NCBI RefSeq assembly: GCF_022267315.1
Contig: NZ_JAIKLE010000001.1
Location: 434,001-498,000, forward strand
DNA: 64,000 nucleotides
Source of the DNA: Maribellus maritimus
Lineage (GTDB): Bacteria > Bacteroidota > Bacteroidia > Bacteroidales > Prolixibacteraceae
Reading direction: 5' to 3'
This document shows, piece by piece, positions 54,844 through 60,562 of the stretch. The notes under the pieces were generated by a model. The model made no database searches. It had not been told where the DNA came from and worked only from the letters and a program-made list of their open reading frames with translations. Positions within the stretch are counted from its first letter, which is position 1, and each line of letters begins with the position of its first letter. Position numbers and translations under genes: made by a program.

Positions 54844-56097
54844 ATGTTACTTTTAAGACTCATATTTGAAAGTTTTAGTTTTGCGTTTGGTTCGCTAAGG
54901 GCAAACAAATTGCGAACTTTGCTTTCGCTTTTGGGAATTACTATCGGAATTTTTGCCATTATTTCGGTTTTTACAGTAATCGATTCACTCGAACGGTTTA
55001 TCAAAGAGAGTTTGAATTCACTGGGAAGTGACATGGTTTATGTTCAAAAATGGCCCTGGACACCACCGGAAGGAGAAACAGAGTATCCATGGTGGAGATA
55101 TTTAAATCGGCCCTCACCAACTCCAGAAGAAACCGAAGAATTGGTCAGAAGAGGAAATACCATCGACAACGCCTCTTTCTTTTTCGGATTCTCCAGAACT
55201 GTTCAATCCGGTTCCGACAAACTCGAAAATGCAACTATCCTGGCCACATCTTATCCGCTGTATGATGTATGGAACCTGGAACTTAGCCAGGGACGATATT
55301 TTACCGAAGCTGAAATGAACTCAGGAGCACCTGTAACCGTAATTGGCGCAGAAATAGCCAATAAATTGTTCAGCGGAACGAACCCGGTGGGGACAACAAT
55401 AAAAATCCAGGGATACAAATTCAGAATAATTGGCGTTTACAAGAAAATGGGGCAAGACATGTTTGGGACAAGCATGGACAACTATATCCATATCTCGGCC
55501 ACAAAATCGTTTTATATGGTCGACGTCCGAAATCGCGACCGCGGGCAAACCATTTGCGTAAAAGCAAAACAAAATGCTGACCAGGATGAGTTTATCGCCG
55601 AGCTGGAAGGAATTATGCGAAACATCCATCGATTAAAACCAATGGAAGAAAATGATTTTGCACTAAATGAAGTAAACCTGATTTCTAACCAGTTTGACCA
55701 GCTTTTTGGAGTGATCAACCTTGCCGGTGCAATTATCGGCGGATTTTCCATTTTGGTGGGTGGCTTTGGGATTGCCAATATCATGTTTGTTTCGGTAAAA
55801 GAACGTACAAAAATTATCGGCATTCAAAAATCGCTGGGAGCTAAACGGTACTTTATTTTGCTTCAATTTATTTTTGAAGCCATTGTACTTTCATTGATTG
55901 GAGGAGTAGTTGGTCTGGTACTGATTTTTATCGGAACACAGATTGTCACTTATGTTAGTGAATTCACTATTGTTTTAACAGTTGGAAATATCGTAAGAGG
56001 CTTGTTGATTTCAAGTGTTATTGGTTTTATTGCCGGATTAATGCCTGCACGATCTGCCGCCAAACTCGATCCGGTAGAAGCAATTAATTCTGTTTAG
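54844..56097 (+). CDS. MacB/FtsX-type ABC transporter permease
   Basis: A 417-residue permease with an N-terminal helix (TLLSLLGITIGIFAIISVFTVI), a large periplasmic MacB_PCD domain of about 240 residues and three C-terminal helices with the FtsX domain (FSILVGGFGIANIMFVSVKERTKIIGIQKSLGA). The final residues LDPVEAINSV are typical. It should work with a separate LolD/MacB-type ATPase, which is not in this window, to move a lipoprotein or peptide. It begins 235 nt from purH on the other strand and ends 5 nt before the convergent deacylase gene. Confidence 0.9.
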   Translation: MLLLRLIFESFSFAFGSLRANKLRTLLSLLGITIGIFAIISVFTVIDSLERFIKESLNSLGSDMVYVQKWPWTPPEGETEYPWWRYLNRPSPTPEETEELVRRGNTIDNASFFFGFSRTVQSGSDKLENATILATSYPLYDVWNLELSQGRYFTEAEMNSGAPVTVIGAEIANKLFSGTNPVGTTIKIQGYKFRIIGVYKKMGQDMFGTSMDNYIHISATKSFYMVDVRNRDRGQTICVKAKQNADQDEFIAELEGIMRNIHRLKPMEENDFALNEVNLISNQFDQLFGVINLAGAIIGGFSILVGGFGIANIMFVSVKERTKIIGIQKSLGAKRYFILLQFIFEAIVLSLIGGVVGLVLIFIGTQIVTYVSEFTIVLTVGNIVRGLLISSVIGFIAGLMPARSAAKLDPVEAINSV

Positions 56098-56102
56098 TTA
56101 GT

Positions 56103-57068
56103 TTATTCAAAACCCAAATGCAGCAATGCATCGCCTTTGTATACCACCGGTGCGTGGTTTAGACCAATAATGTGCCCGTCGGCAGGTATTTTTATTTTGT
56201 ATTCGTATTTCCCGTACGGATCGGATATGGTACCAATAATTTCATCCTTTTTTACTTTTGCTCCGTCTTTTATAAAAAACCGGAACAACCCTCCCTGCCG
56301 CGCGCGTAACCACGTAGAATTTTTAATAATAACTGCATCGGAATAATTGTTCATCTTCTCCAGTTCCTCCGAAAAGTCACGCATCCCGAGATATTGCATC
56401 AGTTTCATTGTTCCTGAAACCCCTCGTTTTGTAATGCGCTGATTAAAGTCGTGTGTTTTTCCACCTTCAAAAAGCAACACTTTTTTGCCCGCCAATGTAG
56501 CCGCCTGTCGAAACGATTTTTCACGTTGCCCGGCATAAACGATAAACCGCGGATTAAAAATTTTTGCCAACTCAAGTAATTCCTCATTGTCTTTAGAAAT
56601 GCGAATCTGCGAAGAATTAAAACGACGTGCCCCACCCGTATGAAAATCGATACAATAATCTGCATGCGGAATAATCTCTTTCATCATGTGATGGGCAAAA
56701 ATACCAGCAAGTGAACCTTTTTGCGAACCCGGAAAAATGCGGTTTAAATCTTTGCCATCGGGAAATTCGCGGGTTTGGTTGATAAACCCAAAAATATTCA
56801 ACGTAGGAATACTAATTACCATTCCTTTTTCGGGTTTCGTAAATTTTCTCGCAAGTAATTCGCGAACAATTTCAACCCCGTTTAATTCGTTTCCGTGAAT
56901 CCCGGCGTTTAATAAAAGAACCGGACCTTCTTCTTTTGCACGTTCAACAATTACAGGAATTTCAATTTTTGAATAGGTATGCAAACGGGCAATGTCGAGG
57001 TTTAAAATTCTTTTTTTACCGGGCGTAATTTCCTCACCGAGAATGGTAATTTTCTTTCTCTTATTCAT
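56103..57068 (-). CDS. AstE/AspA-family zinc deacylase
   Basis: A 321-residue metallo-carboxypeptidase-fold enzyme; the start is the ATG at 57068. GIHGNELNG (His58, Glu61) and DFHTGG (His143) are the zinc ligands, and LLFEGGK holds the likely catalytic Glu. GGLFRFFIKDGAKVKKDEIIG in the C-terminus forms a lipoyl-like beta domain, as in the longer AstE/AspA relatives. Family members remove an acyl group such as succinyl or acetyl from an amino acid, or cleave an amide at a Glu or Asp end. It lies 8 nt after rimK as third gene of a trio, so an amino-acyl or glutamyl conjugate is the likely substrate. Confidence 0.82.
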   Translation of the reverse strand: MNKRKKITILGEEITPGKKRILNLDIARLHTYSKIEIPVIVERAKEEGPVLLLNAGIHGNELNGVEIVRELLARKFTKPEKGMVISIPTLNIFGFINQTREFPDGKDLNRIFPGSQKGSLAGIFAHHMMKEIIPHADYCIDFHTGGARRFNSSQIRISKDNEELLELAKIFNPRFIVYAGQREKSFRQAATLAGKKVLLFEGGKTHDFNQRITKRGVSGTMKLMQYLGMRDFSEELEKMNNYSDAVIIKNSTWLRARQGGLFRFFIKDGAKVKKDEIIGTISDPYGKYEYKIKIPADGHIIGLNHAPVVYKGDALLHLGFE

Positions 57069-57076
57069 ATTTTGAA

Positions 57077-57949
57077 TCAAACATTTCGTTCAATGTAACG
57101 AACAATGCTTTTGGCGATGTCTTTTCCGGTTGCGGACTCGATACCTTCCAAACCCGGCGACGAATTTACCTCCAGAATAAGGGGCCCGTGGTCTGACTGT
57201 AACATATCAACACCGCAAATGCCAAGCCCCATTACACGCGCAGCTTTTAGAGCAGCATTTTCTTCATCCTCCGAAAGTTCAATAATCTCGGCCGACCCTC
57301 CACGGTGCAGATTGGATCGGAATTCACCTTTTTTTGCCTGGCGTTTCATTGCTCCAACCACAACACCGTCAACAACAAACGCTCTGATATCAGCACCTTT
57401 AGCTTCTTTTACAAATTCCTGAACAATTACCCTTGCCTTTAAACCATTAAAAGCTTCCAGCACCGATTCGGCTGCATTATCTGTTTCAGCTAAAACCACA
57501 CCAAGTCCTTGTGTTCCTTCAAGCAGTTTGATAACCACCGGTGTCCCTCCCGCTCCTTTTATAATGTCTTTTACATTTTTTGAGTAATTGGTAAAAACAG
57601 TTTTTGGCAAACCTAAACCGGCACGCGACAATATTTGAAAACTCCGCAGTTTATCGCGTGACCGAACGAGAGCCTGCGACTCCACAGCAGTAAACACCTT
57701 CATCATTTCAAACTGGCGAACCACTGCTGTCCCGTAAAATGTGACTGATGCCCCAATTCGCGGAATCACAGCATCAACATTTTCCAGCTTTGCCCCTTTG
57801 TAACTAATAACCGGGTTCTTTTTTTCAATGATTAAATCGCATTTGGTGTGGTCCACCACCACCATTTCATGTTTTCGTTTTTCTCCCGCCTGAACCAATC
57901 GTTTTGTTGAATATAAATGTGGATTTCTTGATAGTATCACAATCTTCAT
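57077..57949 (-). CDS. rimK: RimK-type ATP-grasp amide ligase
   Basis: A 290-residue ATP-grasp ligase. [20 protein letters not shown] contains the glycine-rich ATP loop, [18 protein letters not shown] the central strands, and [17 protein letters not shown] the metal-binding E-x-N. The N-terminal RimK domain has [24 protein letters not shown]. coli RimK adds glutamates to the C-terminus of ribosomal protein S6, and close relatives ligate other acidic amino acids. It overlaps the protease gene upstream by 4 nt (ATGA) and is followed 8 nt later by the deacylase gene. Calling it the S6 ligase is likely but not proved. Confidence 0.87.
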
Positions 57950-58419
57950 CTGTCTGCTTTTTTCGGTAATTTAATTTCTATCTTCTCTCTCTTTTGGGAA
58001 AGATTTTTTTTTGACGTATCGATAATAAATTTTTTTGACAGAAATTTCCGGCCCAATAAAACCGGATGTTTCATATCTTGTCTTTCCGTCAACGTTAATT
58101 CTATTGGATAAACATTTTCAAATATTTTTATGTCAGTAATTATGGAATACCTTTCTTCCACCATGCCGTTTGAACTTTTTACACGACGTGTTTTATGAAC
58201 CGGAAAACAAAATTCTTTTTCGTGGTACATTTCATGGTCCGGATCCAGAAAATTACATTTTACCCAGTCTTCTCCCTCTTTTTCAATGCACGAAATTTTA
58301 TGGCAATGAAAACTGGATGTATATGCTCCCGAGTCCACTTTCACTTCAATGCCAAACAAACCAAGTTTTTCGAAGTCGGCAATATCTTTCCTGCCAATTA
58401 CGATTTTTTTTACAAACAC
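57946..58419 (-). CDS. Retropepsin-like protease partner of RimK (RimB/DUF785 type)
   Basis: A 157-residue protein that starts with GTG at 58417-58419 and has no in-frame ATG upstream before a stop. The retropepsin-like active site is VDSGAYTSS (Asp29), followed by the family blocks [21 protein letters not shown] and the closing [17 protein letters not shown]. This small aspartic peptidase family is often named ATP-dependent zinc protease, but the motif is that of aspartic enzymes; some members regulate RimK-modified proteins. It is 4 nt overlapped by rimK and lies 9 nt after mgtE. Confidence 0.85.
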
Positions 58420-58428
58420 AAGCTGTTC

Positions 58429-59787
58429 TTATAAAAATTCAAAAAACATCTTTCCAATCATCAGATAAATAAGCAACCCGCAAATGTCGTTCATTGTGGT
58501 AATGAAAGGTCCTGTTGCCAATGCGGGATCTATTTTTAAACGATGCAATATTAATGGAATTGTAGTTCCAAAAAACGACGCGAATATAATTACAATAAAT
58601 AAAGAAATAGACACAGAAAAAGTAAGGTTCATATTCCCCTGCGTAAAATAATTGTAGACAAAAATAAGTATTGCAAAAATAGAAGCGGTTAATAAGGCCA
58701 CAGAAATCTCCTTCATTAACTTTTTAGACGTTGATTCGATATCTTTCACCCCGCTGGCAATGCTTTGCACCACAATCGAGGACGACTGGACTCCCACATT
58801 TCCTGCCATCGCAGCAATTAAGGGTATAAAAAAAGCCAGTTCGGTGACTTTACTCAATGCATCTTCATGGCTTCCTAAAACAAGTGCTCCCATAATCCCA
58901 CCAAGCAGTCCGATTAACAACCAGGGAAAACGTGCCCGCAATAATTCCCAAACCTTATCGCCCGGTTCAACATCACCGGTAATACCCGATACCATTTGGT
59001 AATCTTTCTCGGCTTCTTCACGCACAAAATCAATGACATCGTCAAAGGTAATCCGGCCTTTCAATCGACCAATTTCATCAACCACAGGAATCGCAACCAA
59101 GTCGTATTTATCCATAATTTCCGCTACTTCTTCCTGCCGGGTACTGGTATCAACCATTTTTACATCCGGATTATAGATATTCGAAATTTTTGTATTTGTG
59201 TTGTTCAGAATAAGCTTTTTGAGTGAAAGAACACCCTTCAGTTTTTCGGTATCGTCAACCACATAAATATAGTAGATTTCATCTACCTCCTCGGCCTGCC
59301 TGCTAATTTCTTTTAAACAGGTAGCAACGGTCCAGTTTGCATTTACCACCACCAGCTCTTTTGCCATAATCCCGCCGGCAGAGTCTTCTTCATATTCCAA
59401 AAGGTCAACAATATCGCCAGCCTGCTCAATATCCTCAATCTCGTTTAAAACCTCTTTTTTTACATCATCATCCAAAGCTGCAACAACATCCGCCGCATCA
59501 TCAGAATCCATGTATTCGATAAACTTACTTGCAATAAACTCGGGTGGCAATACCTTCAGGAATCTTCGCCGGTCATTTTCGGGAATTTCAACCAAAACAT
59601 CAGAAGCCTTTTCTCCATCAAGAAGCAAATAGATGTATTTGGCTTCGTCCATGTTCAAATCATCCATTACCTCTGCTATGTCAGCGGGGTGGAGTTCATC
59701 CATCAGCTGTTGCAATTCTTTCTTGTTGTCGTTTTCAACAAGTTCTTTGATGTGATCTATATATTCTCTTGAAATTTCAAATTGCAT
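58429..59787 (-). CDS. mgtE: Magnesium transporter MgtE
   Basis: A 452-residue inner-membrane magnesium channel. The N-terminal helical domain ([17 protein letters not shown], about 30-125) and a pair of CBS domains ([13 protein letters not shown] to [11 protein letters not shown]) sense cytoplasmic magnesium. Five membrane helices follow, with [18 protein letters not shown] at the pore and [19 protein letters not shown] in the last. The start is the ATG at 59787, 11 nt inside the rsmA end, since the longer frame starts at a TTG. It lies between rsmA and the RimK trio. Confidence 0.95.
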
Positions 59788-60562
59788 GTCCTGTCTTTTT
59801 GATTTGATTTTCAATTCCGCGAGTTAATTCAATGTAGTCATTAACAGAGAGCTGCTCAGGTCTTTTCTCAGCGTATTCAGCCGGAAGATCAGTACAAATT
59901 TCCTTCAGAGAGTTCCGAAGCATTTTCCGCCGTTGGTTGAAAGCCGCTTTTACTACTTTAAAAAAAAGCTTCTCATCACAGGGCAAATCGGTCCGGTCGT
60001 TACGCACCAAACGAATTACCGCCGATTTTACTTTTGGTGGGGGAGTAAAAACCTGTTCGGAAACCGTAAAAAGATATTCTATCTGATAAAAAGTTTGAAG
60101 CAATACGCTCAATATTCCATAGGTTTTATTTCCATGGCCCGCGTTAATTCTTTCGGCTACTTCTTTCTGAATCATTCCGACAACCTCGGGGATCCGGTTT
60201 CTGAATTCAAGAACCCGAAAAAATATTTGAGAAGAAATGTTGTAGGGAAAATTCCCTATGACACAAAATTTTCCTTCGAAAAGACCAGGAAAATTAAATT
60301 TCAAAAAATCTTCAGAATAAATATGATTTTCCAGCGCCGGAAAATTTTGATGTAAATACTCAACCGATTCCTTGTCTATTTCTACAACATGAATATTAAG
60401 TTCAGGACGTTCAAGCAAAAACTGTGTCAGCACTCCCATCCCCGGTCCTACTTCCAATACATTGGATTCGGTAGTCCCCAGGCTGTCAACAATTTTACGT
60501 GCAATATTTTGATCTTTCAAAAAATGCTGACCAAGTTTCTTTTTGGGTCTTACAATATTCAT
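59777..60562 (-). CDS. rsmA: 16S rRNA dimethyladenosine methyltransferase
   Basis: A 261-residue SAM-dependent enzyme that dimethylates A1518 and A1519 of 16S rRNA (E. coli numbering), late in 30S assembly. [15 protein letters not shown] at the start, [15 protein letters not shown] as SAM loop, [10 protein letters not shown] (the N-L/F-P-Y catalytic motif) and VKSAVIRLV are all present, with the C-terminal [12 protein letters not shown] block. Length is usual. First gene of a minus-strand run with mgtE and the RimK trio; mgtE overlaps its stop. Confidence 0.96.

Follow-up and report, generated by a model that had tools for sequence, protein, structure and literature searches.

Why does a gene for a zinc hydrolase of the AstE/AspA type stand directly behind those for a RimK glutamate ligase and a RimB-like protease? 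The question is raised by three adjoining genes in a 64,000-nucleotide (nt) stretch of Maribellus maritimus DNA (contig NZ_JAIKLE010000001.1, positions 434,001 to 498,000; the window, hereafter). In Pseudomonas, RimK adds glutamates to ribosomal protein S6 (PMC11957791, PMC7343187, PMC10092738), and the retropepsin RimB both removes polyglutamate and stimulates RimK in the synthesis of free poly-alpha-L-glutamate (PMC11957791). As these activities are known in Pseudomonas, two thirds of the trio constitute a published system, a pair that writes and cuts; the new element is the hydrolase as a companion of RimK. The comparisons below identify it as a near-constant third Rim gene, a strongly conserved partnership that extends the known system. 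The three genes are, in window coordinates:

56103..57068, minus strand: AstE/AspA-type zinc hydrolase gene; product with an M14-like catalytic domain and a C-terminal beta domain (PF24827)
57077..57949, minus strand: rimK, alpha-L-glutamate ligase of the ATP-grasp type (NF007764, PF08443, match to 7qyr)
57946..58419, minus strand: rimB-like retropepsin gene with a GTG start (PF05618; Asp29 in the motif VDSGA)

Coordinates and Pfam matches confirm the layout drawn in an earlier reading of the window (the original prediction), namely protease, ligase and hydrolase genes in succession on the minus strand. The rimB-like gene and rimK overlap by the 4 nt ATGA (57949-57946), and the first ATG of the hydrolase gene (57068) lies 8 nt past the rimK stop; an alternative in-frame TTG at 57080 would produce a second 4-nt overlap, with rimK. 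All three products score well above the relevant Pfam cut-offs (Zn_protease PF05618, 83.9 bits against 27; RimK PF08443, 214.8 against 21; AstE_AspA_cat PF24827, 113.5 against 25). The ligase also exceeds the cut-off of the curated S6--L-glutamate ligase equivalog (NF007764, 372 bits against 331) and aligns without gaps over residues 1-289 with 7qyr, listed as a probable alpha-L-glutamate ligase, retaining Arg211, His215 and Arg216, whose roles are described in PMC10092738. The best NCBIfam match of the protease is to the RimB model NF052261; at 84.6 bits it misses the cut-off of 200 while being the best among the NCBIfam retropepsin models, and for this reason we call the protein RimB-like. 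Its Asp29, in the retropepsin motif VDSGA, is conserved in 58 of 59 aligned rows. For the hydrolase, the general AstE/AspA catalytic domain is the one model whose cut-off is exceeded; its scores fall far short of the equivalogs for DoeB (74.4 bits against 402.7), AstE (22 against 305.65) and aspartoacylase (21.6 against 180). Scanning for promoters and terminators was uninformative (counts of 15 and 5, with shuffles predicting 12.2 and 5.1, respectively).

Conservation of the trio was assessed in two separate sets, one composed of 80 named RimK loci (those with the highest match scores among 514 relatives), the other a phylum sample of 148 evenly drawn Bacteroidota genomes, in which the hydrolase "clade" is defined by our own cut at E <= 6.1e-57. 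The hydrolase gene lies no more than 400 nt downstream of rimK at 59 of the 80 loci, RimB no more than 600 nt upstream at 55, and both partners are present at 46. Eighteen of the 21 loci without an adjacent hydrolase have a copy elsewhere in the genome (39-54% identity), bringing the total to 77/80; the three loci without any (L015, L019, L074) come from records titled as metagenome-assembled genomes. In the phylum sample, 48 genomes have RimK, 44 a member of the hydrolase clade and 42 a RimB-type protease. All of the 44 and all of the 42 are nested inside the 48, and neither protein was found in any of the 100 RimK-less genomes of the sample. Co-occurrence is thus near-obligate: 39 of the RimK genomes have all three proteins, five RimK and the hydrolase, three RimK and RimB, and one RimK alone. 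Counted by genus, which is safer than relying on the Fisher values, since these ignore relatedness, the hydrolase is present in 26/29 RimK-positive and 0/54 RimK-less genera. Two RimK-less genomes carry remote relatives (G135, 33% identity; G175, 25%), both placed outside the clade by the tree.

Where the 44 phylum-sample hydrolases lie was also recorded: 34 are on the same strand directly downstream of rimK and ten on another contig. Linkage of rimK and the hydrolase gene is not due to chance, and the suggestion that the three genes belong together holds across relatives, most of which keep them linked. No family besides the three Rim genes occurs in more than 20 of 114 clustered loci; therefore, nothing else qualifies as a general partner. 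As a separate observation, three loci have RimB-like genes (34-36% identity) downstream, not upstream, of rimK (L041 9781-10212; L071 6991-7401; L077 6996-7406).

The unlinked copies reveal that the hydrolase is retained apart from its partners. Five of the ten genomes concerned (G061, G065, G108, G124, G182) harbor a fused rimBK gene, with open frames of 459-471 residues. In these five (L281-L285), the hydrolase site is flanked by the neighbours c7 and c8 on one side and c11 on the other, and rimB-rimK are absent from it; the same flanks surround an intact rimB-rimK-astE cluster in relatives (L301, L302, L049, L051). The simplest history would be that rimB-rimK were lost from the site and replaced by the fusion, and that the hydrolase gene stayed. 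Fusions of this kind are known, mostly from Flavobacteriales and Rhodobacterales (PMC11957791). One further genome, G097, has a fused rimBK gene and no hydrolase.

The trio extends beyond Bacteroidota. Pseudomonadota and Cyanobacteriota are represented here through plasmid records only; we examined ten of the 37 with RimK, a non-random choice of ours that includes no Escherichia, Klebsiella, Thioclava or Aeromonas record. The best 12 hydrolase matches in plasmid records show 35-41% identity, and 11 of them adjoin rimK by coordinates. RimB is present at eight of the ten RimK loci examined and the hydrolase at six, all six having RimB as well. These trio-bearing records, from two other phyla, belong to Vibrio europaeus, V. 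nigripulchritudo, Salinivibrio proteolyticus, Photobacterium sp., Phaeobacter inhibens and Acaryochloris sp. In two Vibrio records, the stretch read includes RimB and no hydrolase; those from Leisingera and Allocoleopsis have neither. A Vibrio parahaemolyticus plasmid record (L329 4001-4935) matches the hydrolase in two pieces; no gene is annotated there, and the stretch read has no rimK.

Phylogenetic analysis included 106 hydrolase sequences, 96 taken as Rim-linked (a label that covers unlinked copies from RimK genomes and the L329 match) and ten paralogues. The 96 form one group with 98/97 support, in a midpoint-rooted tree with several long rows. One Legionella sequence (L328), on a long branch and with no rimK nearby, falls inside this group. 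As far as tested, the tree agrees with the clade cut, the weakest member (G077) lying inside and the two remote relatives, G135 and G175, outside.

An AlphaFold2 model of the hydrolase, built from 27 aligned sequences, has a mean predicted local distance difference test score (pLDDT) of 84.8, falling below 50 at residues 93-99 and 101-105, directly before the DLNR motif. The solved folds nearest to this predicted one are 3cdx (Z 30.6) and the DoeB/EutE structure 6twm (Z 29.4), over about 298 residues. CphZ (8eip) follows with Z 23.9 and a root-mean-square deviation of 3.6 over 294 residues; carboxypeptidases match at Z of about 15, among them CCP5, whose structure is listed with a Glu-type transition-state analogue. 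His56, Glu59, Asn107, Arg108, His141 and Glu199 are conserved in 95-96 of the 96 Rim-linked sequences. By analogy with aspartoacylase and carboxypeptidase A, we take these residues to be zinc ligands, binders of the substrate carboxylate and the catalytic glutamate. Such an active site fits the predicted release of a residue with a free carboxylate, without telling which residue. We also sought a clade-specific pocket for an acidic substrate, in the form of Arg or Lys residues invariant in the Rim-linked hydrolases and absent from the paralogues, and obtained no support for it; among basic residues only Arg67 (93/96 against 2/10 paralogues) and Arg253 (96/96 against 4/10) stand out.

Additional members of the family were encountered on the way. 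A separate AstE-like paralogue, with 31-36% identity to the window hydrolase, occurs in four phylum-sample genomes (G104:C11, G128:C4, G149:C49, G174:C1; L291-L294), all of which have RimK and the Rim-linked hydrolase, and in four others that had been preselected for RimK (G037:C8, G038:C4, G192:C6, G194:C197). At locus L006 (G000:C134:32038-32271), open reading frame 1441-2070 specifies another AstE/AspA-domain protein of the same genome, only 209 residues long (PF24827, 30.9 bits), directly preceded by a 229-residue frame that is presumably trmD-like.

On which product might these enzymes act? The S6 proteins of E. coli and P. fluorescens end in ...SEE and ...ADE, respectively (table in PMC11957791). 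The Maribellus maritimus protein ends in ...KAKTEQEG, its last residue being glycine. In the phylum sample, S6 ends in Glu in 3/48 RimK-positive genomes as opposed to 8/42 RimK-negative ones, the latter set comprising 42 of the 100 (14 best loci of the search and 28 picked by us for family spread). An Asp end is found in 16/48 and 4/42, respectively, and 19 of the 48 RimK-positive proteins end in Ala or Lys. Glu-terminal S6 is also scarce (3/38) in a second RimK-positive set, made of the 37 proteins found in 40 genomes picked by us from the 80 loci, plus that of the window's own genome. These termini make S6 a doubtful target of RimK here. The RimB authors themselves raise the question of what RimK does where S6 lacks a terminal glutamate, and in their discussion take such proteins to point to possible other roles of RimK (PMC11957791). 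The original prediction had ligase and hydrolase write and erase the same product; this part stays plausible, and it is S6 as the shared substrate that is weakened.

Other acceptors were considered and set aside. All 60 S18 proteins read have Lys or Arg as their last residue, and L9 has a Glu end in 23/46 RimK-positive and 8/14 RimK-negative genomes; neither protein thus tracks RimK. The hydrolase itself has a C-terminal Glu in 21 of 59 rows, a feature that is not conserved.

We propose that the three proteins form a poly-alpha-glutamate module in which RimK builds the chain, RimB cleaves it and the hydrolase disposes of the resulting fragments, a scheme that we regard as evenly poised between right and wrong. 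RimK would ligate glutamates into a chain that is either free or attached to some acceptor, though not to the C-terminus of S6. As a dimeric retropepsin, RimB would then cut runs of about five or more glutamates. Working from the free-carboxylate end, the hydrolase would break down what remains, whether short oligoglutamates or the final residues still attached to the acceptor, and so return glutamate. The scheme supposes that the orthologues studied here keep the activities of RimK and RimB, that the hydrolase takes such pieces as its substrate and that any acceptor would be a molecule other than S6. Earlier, the protease had been cast as a controlling element; this understates its part, RimB itself removing polyglutamate and stimulating RimK (PMC11957791).

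Several observations weigh against this module. RimB is absent from 5/44 hydrolase genomes, and the hydrolase from 4/48 RimK genomes of the phylum sample (G042, G097, G125, G170) and from four of the ten plasmid RimK loci. Arg147, Arg154 and Arg185 are common to 6-7 of the ten paralogues and do not clearly point to an acidic pocket; with most invariant basic residues thus common to paralogues, they provide no support for glutamate specificity. DoeB, whose fold is the most similar among characterised enzymes, removes the acetyl group from a small N-acetyl amino acid. Finally, of the 18 RimK-positive genomes in family f22, 13 encode an S6 protein whose tail is acidic, with Asp (11) or Glu (2) as its last residue; such a tail might still serve as a RimK acceptor.

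This last point, together with the match of RimK to the S6-ligase equivalog and the precedent of Pseudomonas and E. coli (PMC11957791, PMC7343187), speaks for classical ribosome modification, whereby RimK would glutamylate S6 whatever its last residue and RimB and the hydrolase would erase the tail to different depths. We consider it unlikely: the window's own S6 has a ...TEQEG end, Ala and Lys ends are frequent among RimK-positive genomes, Glu ends are no commoner with RimK than without it, and S6 proteins lacking a terminal Glu have been taken to indicate possible other RimK roles (PMC11957791). A cycle of small-molecule conjugates, with RimK joining glutamate to a metabolite and the hydrolase splitting the conjugate in the manner of aspartoacylase, would suit the hydrolase family, whose named members have small N-acyl amino acids or dipeptides as substrates. 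Vertebrate RimK-like enzymes make one such compound, N-acetylaspartylglutamate. However, RimB, specific for glutamate runs in Pseudomonas, is present in 39/44 hydrolase genomes; a polymer therefore fits better than a single conjugate, and we rate the conjugate cycle as quite unlikely. It would be more improbable still that the hydrolase does not act on the glutamate product, being a regulatory or scaffolding partner or owing its linkage to shared inheritance of a cassette. The trio is indeed found on plasmid or secondary-replicon records and therefore may travel as a block, but the hydrolase is kept when unlinked (18/21 and 10/44), including where rimB-rimK are absent from the site and a fused rimBK lies elsewhere, and its catalytic residues are almost invariant.

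The poly-alpha-glutamate module can be set in its wider surroundings. The following genes flank the trio in the window:

58429..59787 (ATG start; or TTG at 59814), minus strand: mgtE, magnesium transporter (TIGR00400, 350.7 bits, cut-off 232.75)
59777..60562, minus strand: rsmA/ksgA, 16S rRNA dimethyltransferase (TIGR00755, 262.3 bits, cut-off 171)
54844..56097, plus strand: MacB/FtsX-type permease gene (PF12704 and PF02687)

Five genes thus run head to tail on the minus strand in the order rsmA, mgtE, rimB-like, rimK, hydrolase, with rsmA overlapping mgtE and 9 nt separating the mgtE end from the rimB start. The cluster is bounded by the convergent permease gene, whose end and that of the hydrolase gene are 5 nt apart; the permease family is present in 10/114 clustered loci. 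That rsmA and mgtE share control with the trio, as had been surmised, is not supported as a general link. The five-gene order is found at 14 of the 80 loci, all labelled Prolixibacteraceae, and no mgtE match was detected in the 24 of 48 phylum-sample RimK loci that were read (L297-L320); the association is a feature of that family.

Separate mgtE genes do occur near rimB-rimK at L034 and in V. europaeus and Salinivibrio, counts for which no background rate is available. On the two plasmid records, the MgtE-family genes adjoin the RimB gene (L321 5884-7227 in Vibrio europaeus; L325 1382-2722 in Salinivibrio); their products share about 34-35% identity with each other and 22-30% with the Bacteroidota copies. 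The presence of these other mgtE-family genes by the trio implies that the magnesium link recurs without being general. In addition, matches to MscS-type channels lie within a few kilobases around rimK at 10/119 loci, again with no background rate and with queries taken from two of the ten (L325 and L334, the others being L034, L037, L044, L071, L080, L081, L086 and L300).

Magnesium and channel genes in some lineages, along with glutamate as an osmolyte and polyglutamate as a Mg2+ binder, are what lies behind a broader idea, which we advance as a tentative and rather doubtful conjecture. The Rim genes of Bacteroidota, some Vibrionaceae, roseobacters and cyanobacteria would constitute a complete poly-alpha-glutamate cycle, not a ribosome-modification device. 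Its polymer would be an intracellular polyanion doubling as a reserve of glutamate, which RimK makes, RimB cleaves and a dedicated zinc hydrolase recycles, perhaps in connection with magnesium and osmotic balance. Whatever the fate of this idea, the hydrolase accompanies RimK in 44/48 genomes, even when unlinked, and for that reason offers a direct handle on the real RimK product.

The main text of PMC11957791 contains no mention of AstE, aspartoacylase, desuccinylase, deacylase or carboxypeptidase, nor does PMC12239564 mention desuccinylase or aspartoacylase. Judged by title and the start of the abstract, none of the open-licence PMC full texts among the matches listed reports RimK together with an AstE/AspA hydrolase; those among them that use both terms concern tumour or brain metabolism by their titles. 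The RimK-hydrolase neighbourhood may have been listed in the 2009 survey by Iyer and colleagues, which dealt with ATP-grasp amidoligases, and we claim no priority for this reason.

Among known systems, the RimBK/RimABK system of Pseudomonas, which carries out polyglutamylation of RpsF, resembles the present one in having RimK beside a retropepsin that removes polyglutamate and stimulates RimK. It differs in that no rimA product is found here among the six proteins scanned, a zinc hydrolase is the near-constant third member and S6 mostly lacks a terminal Glu. The cyanophycin cycle (CphA, cyanophycinase, CphZ) provides a parallel for all three steps, with an ATP-grasp polymerising ligase, a polymer-cutting protease and a finishing hydrolase of the AstE/AspA fold; indeed, genes annotated "succinylglutamate desuccinylase/aspartoacylase family protein" beside cyanophycin genes proved to specify dipeptide hydrolases (PMC10206079). 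In contrast, RimK takes the place of CphA here and a retropepsin that of cyanophycinase, the polymer would consist of alpha-linked glutamate, and identity to CphZ is about 16% in the structural alignment. The cyanophycin synthetase model gives the neighbouring ligase 60.8 bits against a required 850, the gene beside the hydrolase being rimK.

The closest solved folds, those of the N-acetyl-diaminobutyrate deacetylase DoeB/EutE (6twm) and of 3cdx, share only about 20% identity with the hydrolase, which misses the DoeB cut-off, and no ectoine enzyme is found among the six proteins scanned. The Rlo system of P. aeruginosa (RloA, RloB, RloC) likewise combines a retropepsin and an ATP-grasp protein, and RloA cuts a glutamate-rich sequence (PMC12239564). 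Unlike the protein studied here, RloA carries a signal peptide and works together with RloB; a general domain scan revealed no RloB among the six proteins, no search aimed at RloB having been made. The ligase of the window is a true RimK, scoring 32.6 bits against a cut-off of 314.2 with the RimK-related model TIGR02291, which we take to stand for RloC. In tubulin polyglutamylation, ATP-grasp-type writers (TTLL) and M14-type erasers (CCP) act on side-chain branched tails. CCP5 is among the fold matches to the hydrolase, albeit a distant one (Z 15), CCP and AstE/AspA being separate families. If our proposal is correct, the Rim trio would do for alpha-glutamate what the cyanophycin cycle does for its polymer or, alternatively, represent a bacterial writer/eraser pair for protein polyglutamylation.

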